DNA of 38,048 nt, taken from Actinomycetota bacterium. Lineage in GTDB: Bacteria; Actinomycetota; Actinomycetes; S36-B12; UBA5976. The DNA is taken from NCBI GenBank assembly GCA_947452755.1, contig CANGDT010000016.1, positions 1 through 38,048 on the forward strand, read 5' to 3'. Under the pieces are notes generated by a model. It was not told where the DNA came from and made no database searches. It saw nothing but the letters and a program-made list of their open reading frames with translations. Shown one piece after another: positions 9,544 through 38,015 of the stretch; within the stretch, counting starts at the first letter, position 1; each line of letters begins with the position of its first letter. A program made the translations under genes and the position numbers.

Positions 9544-10971
9544 ATGAACTCACTTGGTCTACCACCAATCATTCAAGGTGGCATGGGTGCTGCCGTTTCA
9601 TCGTGGTATCTCGCACAGACCGTTGCCAAGCAGGGACAACTTGGAGTTGTGTCGGGTACCGCACTCGAGACGGTAGTTGCACGGCGTTTACAAGACGGCG
9701 ACCGCGGCGGACACATGCGTCAAGCACTCGCAGCATTCCCATACCAAGATGTTGCTGAACATATTCTCGAAAAGTTTTATCGACCAGATGGTCGTAACGG
9801 TGAACCGTATCGCCCGATGCGACGTCTCAGCATTCAGGCGCATAAAGAACACGATCAACTATCGGTTGCCGCCAACTTCGTGGAAGTGTGGTTAGCAAAG
9901 CAGGCCGGTAACGGCAAAGTCGGAATCAACTTCCTAGAGAAATTGCAAACTGCAACACCGGCTGCACTTTACGGAGCAATGCTCGCTGGCGTTGATGCAG
10001 TACTTATGGGTGCAGGAATTCCGCGCGAAATCCCACAGCTCATGACTGATTTTTCGCAAGGCAAGCCAGGCGCACTTTCGATTGACTCGGAACGCCCAGC
10101 AGGTGTTGCTGCTCCAGTGCTTGAATTCAATCCGCTCGAATCATTCGGTGTTGCGCCAGAAATTCCACGACCTGCATTCCTGGCAATCGTTACCGCCGAA
10201 GTTCTCGCTGCATACCTCGCACGCAATGAAGTAACACGTCCCGACGGATTTGTTGTTGAACATCACGAAGCTGGTGGACACAATGCTCCACCGCGACGTA
10301 TGCAAGACACACCAACTGGTTACGGTCCACTCGACGAACCAAATATGGCAAAGATCAAAGATGTTGGACTTCCGTTCTGGATGGCCGGCGGACGTGCAAC
10401 ACCGGAAGCTGTCGCTGAAGCATTAGCGTTCGGTGCCGAAGGTGTTCAAGTCGGTTCACTGTTTGCATTGAGCAAAGAGTCAGGTTTGTTGCCGCAGTAC
10501 CGCGAACAAATGTTGCAAGCGGCAATTAAGCATCAGCTCAAAGTCCGCACGGACCATCGCGCTTCACCAACAGGTTTCCCATTCAAAGTTGTTGAGCTCG
10601 AAGGCACCGTCGGCGAAGCCTCCACCTACAAAGCACGCCCGCGCTTGTGTGACCTTGGCTATCTACGATCCAGCCACATTGATGAAGCGGGCAAAGTTTC
10701 TTACCGCTGTGCTGCTGAACCAGATGCGCCATACCTGAAAAAGGGCGGCGAAGCTGAAGACCTTGAAGGACGTATCTGTTTGTGCAACGGACTCGTTGCA
10801 GCAATCGGGCTTGGACAAGAACGACCAGATGGTTACAAAGAAGCACCGCTACTGACGCTCGGTTCAACAACCAGCGACGTTGAAGGAATGCTTGCCGAAC
10901 ATCCAGATGGTTGGAGTGCAGTCGACGTCATCAACCGTTTGCTCAAAGGCTTCGAACTAGCCGCAGTTTAA
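9544..10971 (+). CDS. Nitronate monooxygenase-like (NPD/2-nitropropane dioxygenase family) flavoprotein
   Basis: A 475-residue FMN-dependent TIM-barrel protein of the NPD family, which includes nitronate monooxygenases, FabK-type enoyl reductases and PfaD-like proteins. PIIQGGMG (near residue 8) is the family N-terminal FMN loop; HHEAGGHN (about 240) contains the usual active-site His; MAGGRATPEAVAEALAFGA and GVQVGSLFA bind the FMN phosphate. It is about 120-150 residues longer than a typical nitronate monooxygenase, with a C-terminal extension carrying RICLCNG; PfaD-like enzymes are similarly long. The start is ATG at 9544 after CAGGAG. The operator array just upstream suggests repressor control. 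It is monocistronic and ends at a strong terminator. The true reaction is uncertain. Confidence 0.75.
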   Translation: MNSLGLPPIIQGGMGAAVSSWYLAQTVAKQGQLGVVSGTALETVVARRLQDGDRGGHMRQALAAFPYQDVAEHILEKFYRPDGRNGEPYRPMRRLSIQAHKEHDQLSVAANFVEVWLAKQAGNGKVGINFLEKLQTATPAALYGAMLAGVDAVLMGAGIPREIPQLMTDFSQGKPGALSIDSERPAGVAAPVLEFNPLESFGVAPEIPRPAFLAIVTAEVLAAYLARNEVTRPDGFVVEHHEAGGHNAPPRRMQDTPTGYGPLDEPNMAKIKDVGLPFWMAGGRATPEAVAEALAFGAEGVQVGSLFALSKESGLLPQYREQMLQAAIKHQLKVRTDHRASPTGFPFKVVELEGTVGEASTYKARPRLCDLGYLRSSHIDEAGKVSYRCAAEPDAPYLKKGGEAEDLEGRICLCNGLVAAIGLGQERPDGYKEAPLLTLGSTTSDVEGMLAEHPDGWSAVDVINRLLKGFELAAV

Positions 10972-10980
10972 AGAACACAA

Positions 10981-11018
10981 AACAATGGCCCGCTTTCCAA
11001 CGAAAGCGGGCCATTGTT
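10981..11018. terminator. Bidirectional terminator between the NPD-like gene and ppa
   Basis: A perfect 17-bp stem (10981-10997 with 11002-11018, loop CAAC) sits between two convergent genes, with A-rich and T-rich edges that suit both directions. Confidence 0.9.
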
Positions 11019-11025
11019 TGTACAA

Positions 11026-11520
11026 CTAGTGATCTGAATTCTTAAACCGTTCAATCGAATCACGAATCTCAAGTTCAGCGGCATCACGATCAGCCCAGGT
11101 TGCGCCCTCAACGGACTTACCTGGTTCGAGATCCTTATATGTTTCAAAGAAGTGCTGAATTTCAAGACGCTCAAATTCAGGCATGTCTTCCAAATCCTGC
11201 AAACTCAACTTGCGCGGATCATTTGCAGGAACGCACATGATCTTGTCGTCGCCACCGGCTTCATCACGCATTCGGAACATCGCAATTGCGCGGCAGCGAA
11301 TCAGCACACCTGGAAAAGTAGGTTCTTCAATAAGAACGAGAGCATCAAGTGGGTCGCCATCCTGACCAAGGGTGTTTTCGATGTAGCCATAATCACGCGG
11401 GTAACGCGTAGCTGTGAACAGCATGCGATCAAGACGAAGGCGACCAGTCTCATGGTCGACCTCATACTTATTACGGCTACCACCAGGAATCTCTACGAGA
11501 ACGTCAAATTCCATTGCCAT
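11026..11520 (-). CDS. ppa: Inorganic pyrophosphatase (family I)
   Basis: A 164-residue soluble family I pyrophosphatase that hydrolyses PPi to phosphate and pulls biosynthetic reactions forward. The metal-binding signature DGDPLDALV is present (D54, D56, D59), as are YPRDYGY and the Arg/Lys-rich N-terminal phosphate site. The start chosen is ATG at 11520, preceded by AAAGGTGG at good spacing; ATG at 11514 is also possible, and longer readings to 11655 would give an atypical N-terminus. Its promoter probably has -10 TAGACT (complement of 11571-11576). It diverges from tilS, a common actinobacterial neighbourhood. Confidence 0.95.
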
Positions 11521-30397: not shown

Positions 30398-32011
30398 TTA
30401 GCTCTTGCGGTGACTTCCGGCTGATTCCTGATTCTCGGCATCGCCGTCCGTGTCTAGTTCGTCTGCCTTGAACAGCACACCCTTGACGCGACCGGCAGGT
30501 CCCGCCAAACGAGGGGATGCGGCGCGACTTGCGAGCATCAACAGCGGTATACCAATGAGGGCTGCTAGGAGGATCAGTGCTGGAACTGCAATAGAGGCAC
30601 CCTTGGATTCGAGTGTGACCTTTACCGGCGTCAGTGCCTGCGTAGTTCCATCGCCAGAAGTGGTTGTACCACCTGTCGTGGTGCCATCAGTTGTTCCACC
30701 AGTTGTGGTTCCGTCTGTGGTCGTACCACCTGTCGTGGTGCCATCAGTTGTTCCACCAGTTGTAGTTCCGCCACTACCCGTACCACCTGTTGTATTACCA
30801 GTCGTGCCGCCACCTGAGGAATTGCCAGCGCTATTTGCGCCGCTACCCAGTGATCCGCTGAATGTCGGGTTGTTGCAGTTCGCCTTGGTTGCCTTCGCCG
30901 GAATTGTGACGTGACCTGGAATGTTGCGGATCGCATCGAAAACAACTTGAACCAAGTTCGGTGACAGTGGAGCGTAACCCAACACGCTGGCCTTTTGCTG
31001 TCCGTCGCACGCGAAGTACAGCATGAACTTCGACAACGTCAAACCTTTTTCAGGGTTGAATCCTGATGTTGGTGTGATCATGTACGAGTAGCTTGAGATT
31101 GGGTAAGCAGTTGCATCGCCATTGTTGTACACACCAGTGAGTACCTGCGTCTTGTCTGCATTCAATGTTGCGGCCTTCAAGGCAGTTGAAACATTTGCTG
31201 GTGTTGGCAGCGTGTATTTGCCACTTGCATTCTTTACTGCAGCAACCGGGAATCCGCGCTGGAGTGCGTAACCCGTTTCGACATAACCGATTGAGCCAAC
31301 ACCAGTTGAACGGTTGGCTACGTAGTTAGCGACACCGTCCGAACCGGATTGTGCAACTGCATTACTAAAGATTGGGTAGTCAGACGTTCCCGTGTTTGTC
31401 GAACGACCGTTAGCTGAAGCGAATGGTCCCCAAATTGATGGAACCTTTGCAGCAAGGAAAGCGGTGAACTGTGCCGACGTACCTGAGCCATCTGAACGGA
31501 CTACAGGAACAAGTGACTTACTTGGCAATGCCTTACCGCCATTGTCCGCGGTGATTTTCGGATCTGACCAGTTTGTGATTGAGCCGGTGAAAATTCCCGC
31601 AATAGTATTTGGCGACAACTGAAGGTTGGTGACCTGTCGACCAGCGACGTCCTTAACGTTGTACATCAACGCAGTTCCACCAGCAACAATCGGTAGGTAC
31701 TGGAATGATTTTTGACCCGCACGGAGAATGGCTACTTCGTCGGCCAAGAAAGGAATTTCTGAAACCGCAAAGTCAATCTTTCCTTGGTAGTAAAGCGAGC
31801 GACCGGCACTCGATCCGGTACCAGTGAAGTTCACTTTAAGATTCTGACGAGTCTTAACGTCTGCACGCCATTGGTCGACGGCAATCTGACTCCAGGTAGA
31901 ACCAGCACCTTCAACGGGGGTGTTAGACGCAGCTTGCGCAGATGTGCCTGCGATAGCGAGTGGAGCTAGTCCAATGCTGAGTGCGGTGAGTGCAACGGCT
32001 ATGCGACGCAT
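30398..32011 (-). CDS. pstS: Phosphate-binding protein PstS, C-terminally membrane-anchored
   Basis: A 537-residue extracytoplasmic phosphate receptor for the PstCAB transporter. A signal peptide with an AQA-A cleavage site (about residue 27) has no lipobox. The PBP domain includes EGAGSTWS and the phosphate loop RSDGSGTSAQF. Residues ~390-460 are a Gly/Thr repeat stalk; a hydrophobic helix (~482-502) and a basic/acidic tail end the protein, so it is probably held by that helix. ATG at 32011 is three bases after the pstB stop. Its position last in the operon is unusual. A 57-base tandem repeat codes for the stalk. Confidence 0.93.
   Translation of the reverse strand: MRRIAVALTALSIGLAPLAIAGTSAQAASNTPVEGAGSTWSQIAVDQWRADVKTRQNLKVNFTGTGSSAGRSLYYQGKIDFAVSEIPFLADEVAILRAGQKSFQYLPIVAGGTALMYNVKDVAGRQVTNLQLSPNTIAGIFTGSITNWSDPKITADNGGKALPSKSLVPVVRSDGSGTSAQFTAFLAAKVPSIWGPFASANGRSTNTGTSDYPIFSNAVAQSGSDGVANYVANRSTGVGSIGYVETGYALQRGFPVAAVKNASGKYTLPTPANVSTALKAATLNADKTQVLTGVYNNGDATAYPISSYSYMITPTSGFNPEKGLTLSKFMLYFACDGQQKASVLGYAPLSPNLVQVVFDAIRNIPGHVTIPAKATKANCNNPTFSGSLGSGANSAGNSSGGGTTGNTTGGTGSGGTTTGGTTDGTTTGGTTTDGTTTGGTTDGTTTGGTTTSGDGTTQALTPVKVTLESKGASIAVPALILLAALIGIPLLMLASRAASPRLAGPAGRVKGVLFKADELDTDGDAENQESAGSHRKS
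30666..30770. repeat. 57-base in-frame tandem repeat in pstS
   Basis: A 48-base block at 30666-30713 recurs at 30723-30770 with one difference, a period of 57 bases (19 codons), encoding Thr/Gly repeats in the stalk. Shorter degenerate copies extend on either side. Confidence 0.8.
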
Positions 32012-32014
32012 GGT

Positions 32015-32851
32015 TTATCCGAACCTTCCAGTTACGTAGTCTTCGGTGCGTGAGTCTGATGGTGTATTGAAGATCTTGTCGGTCGGTCCCGATTCAACAA
32101 TGTGGCCGGGCTGATTTTCTGCAGCGAGGAAGAATGCGCACTGATCTGATACGCGCTGGGCTTGCTGCATGTTGTGGGTAACGATGACGATGGTGACGCG
32201 TTCCTTGATTTCAAGAATGGTCTCTTCAATACGTCGTGTTGACGTTGGGTCAAGCGCTGAACACGGCTCATCCATCAGCAGTACTTCTGGTTCAACTGCC
32301 AACGAGCGCGCAATACATAGGCGCTGTTGCTGTCCACCCGAAAGACCGCCACCTGGTTCCTTCAATCGATTTGCAACTTCGTTCCACAAGCCTGCACGAC
32401 GAAGTGACGTCTCGATGATTTCATCTTTGTTTGAAACTTTCATTCCCGACAATTTCAAACCGGAGAGCACATTGTCTGCGATGCTCATAGCTGGGAACGG
32501 ATTCGGCTTTTGGAAAACCATTCCGATACGACGACGCGTATCAGTTGCTCGGAGAACCGGGTCATAGATGTCGTGGCCATCAAGCATGACTCGTCCGGCA
32601 AGTGAGGCACCTGGAATCAATTCATGCATACGGTTCAACGTGCGAAGGAATGTCGACTTGCCACAACCTGAAGGGCCGATGAGCGCAGTGACTTCCTTTG
32701 GTCGCATATCCAGTGATACGCGATCAAGCACCTTGCGAGCGCCGAACCAGCAGCTCACATCTTCAGCAACTAGACCGCCGCGGTCGCGCTCATCAAAGCC
32801 AAGACGAGGATCGTCCTGTCCCAGGATTGCTGTTTCATAAGGAGTGGACAT
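32015..32851 (-). CDS. pstB: Phosphate ABC transporter ATP-binding protein PstB
   Basis: A 278-residue ABC ATPase that powers phosphate import. Walker [11 protein letters not shown]-loop [10 protein letters not shown], signature LSGGQQQR, Walker [13 protein letters not shown] and the switch His in VTHNMQQA are all present. ATG at 32851 follows GGAGGAAG and overlaps the pstA stop by one base (TAATG); longer readings run into pstA. The N-terminal ~30 residues ([13 protein letters not shown]) are an extra segment relative to E. coli PstB. Confidence 0.95.
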
Positions 32852-33927
32852 TACTTCCTCCGGCTTCCGGGTTGGCGTGCACCGATGATGCGCGCCAATG
32901 TGAATAGAACGAGAACGAGAACGATGAGTACTAGCGCACCAGACCAAGCACGTGCTTGCTGTTCAGGGAATGGGTTGCGGATCAGGGTGTAAACAAAAAG
33001 TGGCAACGATGACTGCGAACCGTGGAGTGGATTTGCGTTCATCGCACTGCTACCGAAGCTGGTCATGATTAGTGGTGCTGTTTCACCAACTGCTCGGGCA
33101 ACACCGAGAACGACCGAGGTAATGAGACCGGCGCGGGCTGTTGGTAGAACCACTGACCATGTGGCGCGCCACTCGGGTGACCCAAGTGCGAGCGAGGCTT
33201 CACGTAATCCGCCCGGTACCAACCGCAACACTTCTTCGGAAGTACGCGTGATGCTTGGCAGCATCAACACGGAGAGCGCGAGTGCAGCGGCGAAACCGGA
33301 GAACTCTTTATGGAACTGCACAATCCACACAGCGAAGATGAAAAGACCAGCCACGATTGACGGAACACCTGACATCGCATCAACGAACATGCGCACTGGA
33401 CGACGTAGCGGCCCACGTACTTCGTTGAGGAACACTGCGGTCATTACGCCGAGGGGAACCGAGATCAATGCCGCGATTGCGATCTGTTCGAGTGTTCCCA
33501 CGATTGCATGTGCGGCGCCACCACCAAGATCAAGTGTTCCGGTGACGGATAGGTCCTCGGTGAAGAAAGCTTTATTCAGGCTGCCAACACCCTTGACCAA
33601 GATGTAGCTCACGATGAATGCAAGTGGTGCAAAGACGACTGCCGTTCCGGTTAACACAATGACGGTTGCGGTGCGATCGCGGGCGGCTAGTTTTCCTGAG
33701 TGCTGGCTCACAACCATGCGGTAAATAAGAACAAAGAGTAAGTACCAGATCACAAAAATTGCAGGCTTATTACGAATAGGGGAGAGCTGGATTATTGCAA
33801 GCCAGGTGCACGCCCATGAAGAAATGGCGCTACCGATCAGCATCATGATTTCGTCAGGATGCATGCCCTTTCCAGTGCGCTTTACTTCAATGAGCTCTTC
33901 AGTCATTTCTAAGTTTTCAGTTGTCAT
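32851..33927 (-). CDS. pstA: Phosphate ABC transporter permease PstA
   Basis: A 358-residue inner-membrane permease with eight or so hydrophobic segments: two in an N-terminal extension (~30-70) and six in the binding-protein-dependent transport domain. [20 protein letters not shown] is the EAA loop that docks on PstB, and [11 protein letters not shown] is typical of PstA. ATG at 33927 overlaps the pstC stop by one base. It pairs with PstC to form the channel. Confidence 0.93.
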
Positions 33928-34967
33928 TAGATGTCCACTCCTGCACCTGAACGCGAGCGTGCAACGACGAATGAGGCAAGGAAGTTCACAATCAACGTCA
34001 AGATAAACAGGGCAAGACCAGCGGCCATCAATGCCGATAGTGACAAGCCGCTGGCTTCACCAAACTTGAGAGCAATCAATGCAGCAACAGAGTTCGCGCC
34101 GGTTTGAAGAATGTGCGGGCTGACGGTGAATACGGGGCTAATGATCAATGCGACTGCGATAGTTTCACCAAGTGCGCGACCGAGTCCCAGCATCGAGCCA
34201 CCGATGATTCCACCACGTCCGAATGGAAAAACTACGGTACGGATCATGTCCCAACGGGTTGAGCCAAGTGCAAGTGCAGCTTCACGCTCACCCATAGGTG
34301 CTTGGCTGAATACTTCGCGGACGATTGACGCGGTAATCGGCAACACCATCAGCGACACAATGGTTCCGGCAACAAATGCCGACCCTGTGAAGTTTGGTTC
34401 TGTCACGCGGAAAAATGGAAGGCGCGACAAGTTCGTGTTGAGAAATTCTGCGAAAGGTACCAGCAGGGGTTGGAGTACGAACAAACCCCACAAACCGTAA
34501 ATCAAACTTGGAATAGCTGCGAGCAAATCAACGAGCGCGGTGAGTGGTTTGCGAAGTTTTCGTGGCGCAAAGTCTGTTAAGAATAACGCGATACCGATAG
34601 CAAGTGGAATGGCGATAGCCAACGCGATGATCGCGATTATGACGGTCCAGTACAGCACAGCCAAGATTCCAAACTTGGCTGGCGTTGCTTGCGGTTGCCA
34701 TTGCGTTCCGGTAAAGAATGAAAGGCCTGTGTAACGGAGCGCTTCGCCTGCACGTATTAACAAGAAGCCGCCGATGACGACAAGAAGTGCGAGTGTGATT
34801 ACCCCAGCGCCAGTTGCTAGCCCGCGGTAAACACGGTCTGCCTTTGTGCGTGAGCGTGCAACGCTTCGAGGTGCGTCCTGGGCTTTACCGAAATTCGGAT
34901 CTTCGGTAATTCGAGTTTGTTGGTCGATTACCTTGTCGAGAAACGATGGTTCGTTCGAGTCAGACAA
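33927..34967 (-). CDS. pstC: Phosphate ABC transporter permease PstC
   Basis: A ~346-residue permease and first gene of pstCABS. After a ~60-residue charged N-terminus come six transmembrane helices; LAAIPSLIYGLWG and the EAA loop AALALGSTRWDMIRTVVFP mark PstC. The start chosen is TTG at 34967, with GGAGAG five bases upstream; ATG at 35003 would add 12 residues but has no ribosome site. It diverges from a second PstS-like gene, with a PHO-box-like pair between them. phoU and phoP/R are not in the window. Confidence 0.9.
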   Translation of the reverse strand: MSDSNEPSFLDKVIDQQTRITEDPNFGKAQDAPRSVARSRTKADRVYRGLATGAGVITLALLVVIGGFLLIRAGEALRYTGLSFFTGTQWQPQATPAKFGILAVLYWTVIIAIIALAIAIPLAIGIALFLTDFAPRKLRKPLTALVDLLAAIPSLIYGLWGLFVLQPLLVPFAEFLNTNLSRLPFFRVTEPNFTGSAFVAGTIVSLMVLPITASIVREVFSQAPMGEREAALALGSTRWDMIRTVVFPFGRGGIIGGSMLGLGRALGETIAVALIISPVFTVSPHILQTGANSVAALIALKFGEASGLSLSALMAAGLALFILTLIVNFLASFVVARSRSGAGVDI

Positions 34968-35078
34968 CTTTTCTCTCCATTGATTTCTCTCAACATTTTT
35001 CATGGGGCGAAAATTGCGAATATCGCCTGAGTAAACAGTCGCCTAGCCAAGCAAAGTGGAACAAACGAGGACCTATCT

Positions 35079-35100
35079 AATGTGTGACATTTAGGTGAAC
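35079..35100 (-). promoter_or_regulatory. PHO box (PhoP-type direct repeats) between pstC and the second pstS-like gene
   Basis: Leftward, two adjacent 11-base units GTTCACCTAAA and TGTCACACATT share the TCAC core of actinobacterial PhoP sites. A candidate pstC promoter, TTGTTC-17-TAGATA, overlaps the box, with -10 at 35074-35079. The site may serve both divergent transcripts. Confidence 0.6.
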
Positions 35101-35199: not shown

Positions 35200-37080
35200 T
35201 TGAAGATCACCCCAGCGCGTGGGCCAGCTCGTCGCGGCTTTACTGCGATTTTTGCGGGAATTTTGTCCGTTTTCGTGGCTTTGGCGGTTTTTCCATCCAT
35301 TGGTCGTGCCAGCGGTTCACCGACAGTGACTTTCAGCCAGGCAACTGGCCTTCGGGATACGCAGGTCATCACTGTGCGTTGGTCCGGCTTTGCGCCAGAG
35401 GAGAATATTTACCTACGCCAGTGTGCCCATGTGAATGCAACTGCAGAACAGCCTGATTTGGCGAATTCAGAGCCAGAAACAAATCTGGATTGTGGAACGG
35501 GATTGTCCGCAATCTCCAGCGACTCCAACGGCAGTGGTCTGGCATATTTTCCAGTCGTGGTAACAATTGGCACCGGAAATACTGTGCCTGGTGACAACAA
35601 CATGATCTGTGGGGCGACAAAGGATTGTTTTCTTGCCGCAATGACTCGCGATCAGCTTCGTACTCCTGGTGTTGCCCATGGTTTGCAGCGACTCGTTTTC
35701 GCCGCCGATGCAACATCATGCCCACAAACTGGTCAAACAGTTCTGAGTGGCGGCGGCACAGGGGCCGTGAATATCGGAATAGCTGATTGGCAAGTTGGCA
35801 TTTGTCCTGCTCCAACGAATACGACTCTGGACTATGTTGCCACTAAGGGTGATGCAGGCGGCCGACAGGATTTCCTTTGCGGTTTGCGATCCTTTGCCTT
35901 AACGGAAACCCCGGGTGCCGCGAATGAAGCGTGCTTCCTCAATGGAGCAATGCGCCCACACACGTTTGTTCCGGTAGCGAATAATTCGCTGGTCTTTGCC
36001 TACAACATGCGCGACAAAGTTACTCACCAACGCATTGAAGATTTGAAACTCACCCCGTCGATGCTCGCGTGGGCCTTTACCGGTCAGACACTTGCGTGGA
36101 GCAGCTTTGAAAACACGGATCTCCATGCTCAGCAAATTGCTGATTTGAATAGCGGACATGTGTTGCCAAACAACATTCAAGTTATTGGTCGTGCGGATCA
36201 ATCTTCGTTGAATTATTTGTTGACGCGATTCTTTATCACGCGCGCCAAGGAAGCATTGTGGGCTGGTGGAATTAATTTCCATTTTGACGAACCCACAGAG
36301 TTTTATCCCGCTGCTCAAGGCCTAGATCTCAAGACCACTCCAGTCGCAGTCTCTAACGCGCTGTCACAAAGCGATGACCTCGATGGTGTCATGGGTTGGA
36401 TTGGTGTCATGGATGCCGCAACGGCCGCCTATTACGGATTGCCTACCGTCGCAATTGGAACAACAAGCGATCCGGCCACCGCATCGTTTGTCACAAGCAC
36501 TCCTGAGTCTGTTGCCAAAGGAATCGCATTGATGACAGATTCTGGTCAGGGCACACTTGAAGCTAATGTGTGGCCGGCTGACCCAACGGCTTACCCGCTG
36601 CCATTTACGGTTTACGCGGAATTGCCGACGGATTCATCATTGACTCAGGATCAGGTTGATAGCACGACAGCGTGGCTCAATTTTGTAAAGAATCAAGAAG
36701 TTCTGGCTCCTGGCTATGTCGCACTTTCCACTCCACAAAAGTCTGCAATTGAAGGTTCGCTAACAAAGTTCACCATTCAGCCAAAGCCCAAGCCGACACC
36801 TAAACCGACCACGTCGCCAACGCAGAGCACCGACCCAGGTACAACAGATGGCTCCGGAACTGGTGGTTTTCCAACGGATACCGGAACAGTCGACAGTGGC
36901 TCTGGCGACACAGGTGGCACTGGTTCCACAACGCCAGTGGTTGCACCAGTTTCAATCTTCGCCCAGAACGTATCTGTCAAGGCCTCGTTCTCAACAGCCC
37001 TGCTGCTGTTGCTACTTATCGCAGGTATCGGTGCTACCGGGTTTGGCGCGTGGCAACTAAGTTGGGGTAAGAAGCAGTGA
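35200..37080 (+). CDS. Second PstS-like substrate-binding surface protein with C-terminal anchor
   Basis: A 626-residue exported protein. A signal peptide (about 1-37) leads to an N-terminal beta domain resembling the neocarzinostatin/Ig-like type (VTVRWSGFAPEENIYLRQC), then a PstS-like periplasmic-binding domain (~150-520). A Pro/Lys/Thr then Gly/Thr-rich stalk follows (~527-585), then a transmembrane helix (~598-618) and a short basic tail. It probably binds phosphate or a phosphate-containing ligand at the surface. The TTG start at 35200 has TGGAG eight bases upstream. It diverges from pstCABS across a PHO box and overlaps the sortase-like gene by GTGA. No LPXTG motif is present. Confidence 0.78.
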   Translation: MKITPARGPARRGFTAIFAGILSVFVALAVFPSIGRASGSPTVTFSQATGLRDTQVITVRWSGFAPEENIYLRQCAHVNATAEQPDLANSEPETNLDCGTGLSAISSDSNGSGLAYFPVVVTIGTGNTVPGDNNMICGATKDCFLAAMTRDQLRTPGVAHGLQRLVFAADATSCPQTGQTVLSGGGTGAVNIGIADWQVGICPAPTNTTLDYVATKGDAGGRQDFLCGLRSFALTETPGAANEACFLNGAMRPHTFVPVANNSLVFAYNMRDKVTHQRIEDLKLTPSMLAWAFTGQTLAWSSFENTDLHAQQIADLNSGHVLPNNIQVIGRADQSSLNYLLTRFFITRAKEALWAGGINFHFDEPTEFYPAAQGLDLKTTPVAVSNALSQSDDLDGVMGWIGVMDAATAAYYGLPTVAIGTTSDPATASFVTSTPESVAKGIALMTDSGQGTLEANVWPADPTAYPLPFTVYAELPTDSSLTQDQVDSTTAWLNFVKNQEVLAPGYVALSTPQKSAIEGSLTKFTIQPKPKPTPKPTTSPTQSTDPGTTDGSGTGGFPTDTGTVDSGSGDTGGTGSTTPVVAPVSIFAQNVSVKASFSTALLLLLLIAGIGATGFGAWQLSWGKKQ

Positions 37081-37976
37081 CGTTGACCGCTAATCAGACA
37101 TGGGACGGAGTACACCGAGTGTCTACTCCGTCGGTACAAGAGGCAGCGCCATCGGTTGATGTTGCACACCGAATTCAATCCCTTCCGCGCAACCAGATTG
37201 CGGTGCTACTTGCCGGCTTGCTTTTGTTGGCAATCTTGGTTGTTGAATTTTTAGGTGGGTTCTTTATTGAACAGCGCGCACAAGGACAGTTGCGTAATGA
37301 ATTCGCGGGAACACTTGCAACGGCCGCTTCGGCATTCGGCCAACCAGGCCTAAGCCCGCTGCCGGACACAGCGCCACAACTCGGCTCAGCAGTAGCCCAG
37401 GTGCGAATTCCTAAAATTGGATTGACCCAGATTGCAGTTGAGGGATCATCGTCAGAATTTACCCGTAAGGGACTTGCGCACGTTCCAGGAACAGTGTTAC
37501 CTGGTCAAGCTGGACACTCAATAATCATCGGTCGCCGAACGAGTTTTGGTGCCCCACTTGCGAATCTGGGCAATCTTGTCGTTGGCTCTGACATTGTCGT
37601 AACGACAGTTGAAGGCAATGCAACGTACAAGGTGATTGCTAATACGACCCCGGCAGACAAGTTGCCGGCAAACTTGCTTACGGTTGTTACGTCCAACCCA
37701 CCTGTACTTTCGATTGCGCAATTATCAATTCAAGCTGAACTTGTTGGAAAACCTTTTCCGGCAACACCGCGCAATAATCCTGTGACAAACCGCGGCGACC
37801 ATCTCGCGGAACTTATTGTGTTGATACAACTTTTGCTTTTGTCGATTATCGCGATTCCATACGCACGCCGTCGTTTCAGCGCGATGGTCACCTGGCTTGT
37901 TTTGGCGCCTGTCATTGGCGCACTTGTCGTAGGTGTAGCTCTCGTCGTAGACACGTATCTACCCGCCACGCTCTAA
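37077..37976 (+). CDS. Sortase-fold protein lacking catalytic residues (pseudosortase)
   Basis: A 299-residue membrane protein: one helix at ~41-61, a class E/F-like sortase domain (~105-225), then two C-terminal helices (~243-263 and 270-293). The fold landmarks IPKIGL, GTVLPGQAGHS, FGAPLANLGNL and YKVIA are clear. But the catalytic His of the usual IAGHR is Arg (R153 in IIGRR), the catalytic Cys of TLVTC is Ser (S206 in VVTSNPP), and no Arg occurs in the following strand (207-222). The whole protein contains no cysteine. Transpeptidation is therefore very unlikely. GTG at 37077 overlaps the PstS-like stop, implying coupled synthesis. Confidence 0.82.
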   Translation: MTLTANQTWDGVHRVSTPSVQEAAPSVDVAHRIQSLPRNQIAVLLAGLLLLAILVVEFLGGFFIEQRAQGQLRNEFAGTLATAASAFGQPGLSPLPDTAPQLGSAVAQVRIPKIGLTQIAVEGSSSEFTRKGLAHVPGTVLPGQAGHSIIIGRRTSFGAPLANLGNLVVGSDIVVTTVEGNATYKVIANTTPADKLPANLLTVVTSNPPVLSIAQLSIQAELVGKPFPATPRNNPVTNRGDHLAELIVLIQLLLLSIIAIPYARRRFSAMVTWLVLAPVIGALVVGVALVVDTYLPATL

Positions 37977-37993: not shown

Positions 37994-38015
37994 GTTCACC
38001 CAACCTTTATCTGTT
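37994..38015 (+). promoter_or_regulatory. Second PHO-box-like element at the right edge
   Basis: GTTCACCCAAC followed by CTTTATCTGTT forms two adjacent 11-base units like the one before pstC. It lies after the sortase-like gene and probably precedes a rightward gene beyond the window. CTGTTATCTATTACAG next to it is a loose inverted repeat. Confidence 0.45.

Follow-up and report, generated by a model that had tools for sequence, protein, structure and literature searches.

A triad-less branch of the sortase family linked to pst genes in Actinomycetota, a putative accessory of a Pst variant

We found that a sortase-like protein encoded beside the phosphate-uptake (pst) genes of an actinobacterial genome belongs to a conserved branch of the sortase family that has lost its catalytic triad. 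Our main reading, to which we assign a probability of roughly 0.6, is that this pseudosortase is a non-catalytic, membrane-anchored accessory subunit of a distinct actinobacterial variant of the Pst system; its partner, ligand, role and inactivity are all inferred. Sortases are known as transpeptidases that glue proteins to the cell wall. The whole stretch of DNA that we analyzed (38,048 nucleotides, called the window below) is a single contig in a draft assembly of 1.73 Mb, and the features on which the argument rests are the following.

30398-32011, minus strand: pstS, with intact motifs GAGST and RSDGSGTS, a Gly/Thr-rich linker and a C-terminal transmembrane (TM) helix
32015-32947, minus strand: pstB, by NCBIfam profile; this is the listed open reading frame, and the true start is probably further in
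32851-33927, minus strand: pstA, by NCBIfam profile
33927-35003, minus strand: pstC, by NCBIfam profile, divergent from PstS2 and belonging to the module-bearing Pst subtype (the module being PstS2 and the pseudosortase)
35200-37080, plus strand: PstS2, a secreted protein that combines neocarzinostatin-like and PstS-fold domains with a disordered linker and a TM helix at its C-terminus
37077-37976, plus strand: the pseudosortase gene, 299 aa with a GTG start, supported by Pfam and NCBIfam profiles, alignment, an AlphaFold2 model and Foldseek
37383-37748, plus strand: sortase-like beta barrel, residues 103-224 (Pfam, AlphaFold2, Foldseek; pLDDT mostly 75-90)
37533-37535, plus strand: codon of Arg153, at the catalytic His position (60 of the 64 relatives have Arg and 4 have Lys)
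37692-37694, plus strand: codon of Ser206, at the catalytic Cys position (among the 64 relatives, Ala in 30, Ser in 27, Gly in 5, Thr in 1 and one unread)
37800-37958, plus strand: C-terminal TM hairpin, helices 242-266 and 269-294 (AlphaFold2 model)
37959-37973, plus strand: C-terminal tail LPATL, which is LPNLL in most members of the class, with Pro296 kept in 61/61

The pseudosortase consists of a cytoplasmic N-terminus, a TM helix, a sortase barrel without the Cys/His/Arg triad, a two-TM hairpin and the LPATL tail, and its reading frame is uninterrupted over all 299 residues. The start of the gene overlaps the stop of the upstream PstS2 gene (GTGA at 37077-37080), the translation contains no Cys, and the landmarks IPKIGL, GQAGH and FGAPLANL are all found in it. 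The Pfam family Sortase (PF04203, peptidase C60) matches at 5.7e-11, with 42.7 bits against a cut-off of 26.6, and the top NCBIfam model is that of the class E sortases (NF033747), at 56 bits, which is far under its 160-bit cut-off; four relatives also fall short of that cut-off, with 41-121 bits. When the protein is aligned by profile to the SrtE of Streptomyces avermitilis (5go5/5go6), Arg153 pairs with the catalytic His in the AGHR motif and Ser206 with the Cys in LTxxTC, the position of the catalytic Arg is not Arg, and the next strand is without Arg. The same three assignments come out when the alignment is made with catalytic sortases of related genomes. An earlier note, made from the sequence alone, had claimed the absence of Cys, the replacements at residues 153 and 206 and the missing Arg, all of which held by translation and profile alignment, as did its claims of sortase landmarks, of an intact, membrane-framed reading frame and of coupling through GTGA.

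The pseudosortase is predicted to have the sortase beta-barrel fold, on the basis of a model and not of a solved structure. The AlphaFold2 model was built from an input of nine sequences and has a mean pLDDT of 69, with the barrel mostly at 75-90 and the tail at low confidence. It shows the strand order of sortases, with R153 closing one strand and S206 closing another, a single TM helix ahead of the barrel and a two-helix hairpin behind it. The best 50 Foldseek matches of the model against the PDB are all sortases, with 5uus at the top (1.4e-10). Four residues of the hairpin and tail region (W273, P278, L295 and P296) are near-invariant among the relatives. The beta6/beta7 region, which PMC5148588 describes as a distinctive loop of the SrtE1 active site, is shorter in the alignment than in catalytic relatives. 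As a side observation, the same genome encodes another, smaller sortase that keeps His and Cys, on contig C17 (3265-3849, locus L003).

We searched for relatives stepwise, among close relatives and then in the family, order, class and phylum (Actinomycetota). In the class sample there is a clear score gap that parts full-length relatives of the pseudosortase from ordinary sortases: by our count from the listing, 52 of 395 genomes match at 1e-48 or better, and the next group begins near 1e-37. Across the phylum we read 64 distinct relatives, and none of them keeps the catalytic His, which is Arg or Lys in every one. The Cys position holds only Ala, Ser, Gly or Thr where it could be read, none of the 64 barrels contains a Cys, and the catalytic Arg is missing in nearly all of this dead-sortase family. 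Among related sortases of the His type, His is kept in 55/55 and Cys is present wherever the Cys region aligned. We found no close homologue with an intact triad among the relatives that we searched. In a tree of 120 barrels, all 64 R/K-type sequences lie on one side of a branch with a support of 81, and the same split is recovered when the catalytic columns are masked (SH-aLRT 95); these trees rest on few columns, and many of their inner forks are unresolved.

The pseudosortase is under purifying selection, and the loss of the triad is not decay. The Nei-Gojobori dN/dS between the window's gene and that of a 77% identical relative is 0.078, with dS near saturation, and two other pairs give 0.063 and 0.039. 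Constraint in the first pair is as strong on the barrel and C-terminal hairpin as on the first TM helix, and it is weakest on the cytoplasmic N-terminus (pN 0.33, as against 0.12 in the barrel). Presence of the gene is patchy inside the window's genus. The genomes are mostly drafts, and because reading frames in the GC-rich ones were delimited by stop codons on both sides, the precise gene starts are uncertain.

The branch is tied by position to the phosphate-uptake genes. Counting each locus once, with the type assigned by alignment, we found pst genes within 9 kb in 52/53 R/K-type loci (the exception, L040, is truncated by the end of its contig) and in 0/18 His-type loci; the Fisher value of 6e-16 for this difference is uncorrected for common descent and overstates the independence of the loci. 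Many class members have the order pstC-pstA-pstS-PstS2-pseudosortase-pstB, and in the window's family the PstS2-pseudosortase pair is divergent from pstCABS. In nearly all loci with enough sequence the pseudosortase lies directly after or near PstS2 inside the pst cluster, with 1-3 additional secreted genes separating the two in some GC-rich lineages, and linkage to pst is seen in other classes too.

Within two families of the order, the window's own (f1) and f3, PstS2 and the pseudosortase share exactly the same 12 genomes. In the window's family, the pstC of genomes with the module is 63-100% identical to that of the window, whereas that of the others is 39-51% identical or less, and 12 canonical pst loci that served as controls contain neither PstS2 nor the pseudosortase. 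Genomes with the module have their own pstC lineage and the canonical loci contain neither module gene, from which we infer a separate Pst subtype that the module identifies. Pst does not in general depend on the module, as many relatives, in the window's genus and in other families, have a Pst system that lacks it.

The earlier note had proposed a repurposed, non-catalytic role tied to the phosphate system, and this is supported by the loss of the triad in 64/64 relatives, the purifying selection, the linkage to pst, the barrel model and the absence of an intact-triad close homologue. The checks it had suggested gave a sortase barrel with substituted triad positions (alignment with a class E sortase and a Foldseek comparison of the model with known structures) and, for homologues near PstS-like genes, a triad lost in all 64 and a fold under purifying selection. 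Neither of the outcomes that would have refuted it, which were close homologues with an intact triad together with recent decay here, or a structure that is not a sortase, occurred.

The partner gene, PstS2, encodes a protein with the fold of PstS (E. coli 1a54, M. tuberculosis PstS3 4lvq). Its structure model is weak (pLDDT 54.7), but the sequence profile is consistent with what Foldseek matched, namely PstS and relatives of neocarzinostatin; several PstS2 proteins, from several lineages, match no Pfam family. Unlike PstS, it is without GxGST and RSDGSGT and it adds the neocarzinostatin-like domain, the linker and the C-terminal TM helix. By motif search, the phosphate-site motifs GxGS(T/S) and (R/H)x(D/E)GSG(T/S) are absent in 42/43 PstS2 proteins, the window's included, and both are kept in nearly all PstS proteins of the same loci; the count of 42/43 relies on manual sorting of the motif-search list into PstS and PstS2. 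From the lost motifs, with no affinity data, we infer that PstS2 is impaired in binding as a PstS. The earlier note had described a surface protein without LPXTG upstream of the pseudosortase, which held, and had called it the phosphate receptor, which held only in part: because this protein is degenerate at the phosphate site, the separate PstS (30398-32011) is the more likely receptor. No sorting signal of the LPXTG type is present in PstS2 (35200-37080), and we rejected it as a sortase substrate on that ground.

Some further observations concern the surroundings of the module. The window's PstS ends in a TM helix, and we saw no C-terminal TM in canonical PstS of the same family. A two-TM extension at the N-terminus of PstA, present in loci with the module, was considered as a docking site specific to the module and was rejected, since canonical PstA proteins of the family also have hydrophobic N-terminal extensions. 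In PstS2, a motif S(I/V)F(A/S) lies ahead of the TM helix (36952-36963, residues 585-588) in 7/7 aligned sequences, and this segment is a possible candidate for docking. The divergent promoter between pstC and PstS2 contains a PHO-box-like site, GTTCACCTAAATGTCACAC (35081-35100, minus strand), which is nearly unchanged in the 77% relative (GTTCACCTATATGTCACAC), and another, GTTCACCCAACC, follows the pseudosortase (37994-38015, plus strand); neither was tested against chance. Beyond the end of the window, a gene on contig C28 that overlaps it from 37900 (L045:3537-6068, minus strand) encodes an 843-aa secreted protein with a binding-protein-like N-terminus (GSGSDTT...GSGT). A relative of this protein is encoded directly downstream of the pseudosortase in the relatives from f1 and f3 and at other places of the cluster in many further lineages, and the protein is likely to be a third binding protein of the module.

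In the accessory-subunit reading, the pseudosortase would no longer transpeptidate, as inferred from its residues, and would bind PstS2, most likely through the linker or the TM-proximal segment of the latter. It would thereby hold the degenerate PstS2 domain at the PstCA transporter, where PstS2 may assist delivery from the true phosphate-binding proteins or gate their access. With Arg or Lys fixed at the His position and a small residue at the Cys position, the old active site would be a basic pocket, which may bind an anionic group that is part of the partner, of a wall polymer or of phosphate. All of these steps are inferred. Genomic linkage to pst is not proof of contact, and neither an interaction nor a ligand nor a phosphate phenotype has direct evidence behind it; among the chaperone, scaffold and ligand sensor that the earlier note had offered, the data support no choice. 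A bolder version, which we regard as no more than possible, is that the sortase active site was turned once, early in Actinomycetota, into a receptor for an anion, either phosphate or a phosphorylated ligand, forming with a degenerate PstS a surface complex that senses or hands over phosphate.

Other explanations have to be weighed against this one. The pseudosortase and PstS2 could be a sensor of extracellular phosphate or of the state of the wall that signals through the TM hairpin to Pst, PhoU or a two-component system and does not aid uptake. A degenerate binding protein with a degenerate enzyme is a usual origin of sensors, the hairpin and the C-terminal tail are strongly conserved, and a cytoplasmic N-terminal part exists; however, that part is the least constrained of the protein, and as far as we examined we saw no signaling gene as part of the conserved cluster, so we think a sensor unlikely. 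We are somewhat more doubtful of a decoy or negative regulator that binds sorting signals or lipid II without cleavage and so controls anchoring by real sortases. The retained fold and the His/Cys sortase of the host genome speak for it, and so does locus L154, where a surface protein with a LASTG signal, a TM helix and a basic tail (9743-11194, minus strand) lies directly before the pseudosortase. This is the sole case in 48 loci of a sorting-signal protein (LPXTG/LAXTG, TM and basic tail) in the cluster, and only the clusters were searched. Recognition of sorting signals is unlikely because in the other 47 of 48 loci the cluster encodes no such substrate and because the beta6/beta7 region is shortened; moreover, the linkage is to pst and not to sortases or pili.

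Still less probable is an enzyme with a new mechanism, in which Ser206 would be the nucleophile and Arg153 a base or oxyanion partner. The window's protein shares Ser at the Cys position with 26 other relatives, and Arg or Lys is fixed at the His position, but catalysis by Ser206 is unlikely because Ala or Gly occupies that position in 35/64, and the catalytic Arg is gone in nearly all. The remaining possibility, a decaying sortase or a functionless passenger gene, could appeal to the lost triad and to the patchy presence within the genus, but it is practically ruled out by intact frames, dN/dS values of 0.04-0.08, substitutions that 64 relatives share throughout Actinomycetota and persistent synteny.

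A pseudoenzyme branch of the sortase family that is a probable Pst accessory, its role being inferred, has likely not been described, at least in the open-access literature that we searched. No account of a pst operon with a sortase-like gene turned up there, which is weak evidence given the restriction to open access; sortase, pst operon and PstS occurred together only in a paper on serrapeptase and S. aureus, and no paper treated an inactive sortase or sortase pseudoenzyme, or neocarzinostatin, phosphate binding and sortase together. If the accessory-subunit reading is true, a triad-less branch spread through a phylum within a phosphate-uptake operon would be a case of the sortase fold working without chemistry, and two unstudied conserved components, the pseudosortase and PstS2, would be added to one of the best-studied bacterial transporters. 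As the Pfam match would tend to name the pseudosortase a sortase, counts of actinobacterial sortases may be inflated.

The closest known systems are the class E sortases (SrtE1 of Streptomyces coelicolor, SrtE of S. avermitilis and NF033747), which give the best sequence match and share with the pseudosortase the barrel order, the N-terminal TM helix and the GxGHxxxT..PGxxG landmarks. Unlike them, the pseudosortase group has no triad, a shorter beta6/beta7 region and no evident sorting substrate, adds the two-TM C-terminal hairpin and the LP(N/A)xL tail, and scores below the NF033747 cut-off. His/Cys sortases of other actinobacterial classes (L195, L196, L198-L203, L205) resemble the pseudosortase as far as the C-terminus, where their last residues are LLP(A/S/P) or LPS, but have both His and Cys and no pst genes nearby; since they align through the C-terminus and have a similar tail, the hairpin would in this reading pre-date the loss of the triad. 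We found no support for the idea that the LPATL/LPNLL tail acts as a tethered pseudosubstrate and appeared when the triad was lost, as these His/Cys relatives end in LLP(A/S/P) too and the tail is of low confidence in the model.

Two loci bear on how the triad may have been lost. L094 (Acidimicrobiales) resembles the pseudosortase in its full-length architecture, its tail (LLPGTL) and a Ser in place of Cys, but differs in that it retains His and Arg and has no pst neighbors. L189 looks like an intermediate: it has a sortase with R/S at the His and Cys positions and the Arg kept, and its PstS2 has intact phosphate motifs. In the barrel tree L094, then L189, lie nearest to the base of the dead group. 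From these states and tree positions we suggest that Cys may have been lost first and His changed to Arg next, followed by the loss of Arg and the degeneration of PstS2, although this order is only a possibility, as it depends on single sequences on long branches. The sortase-like protein of L094 (5094-7874) also has a long charged N-terminal repeat region and adjoins a Thr/Ser-rich TM surface protein, and it represents a second, pst-free case of nucleophile loss.
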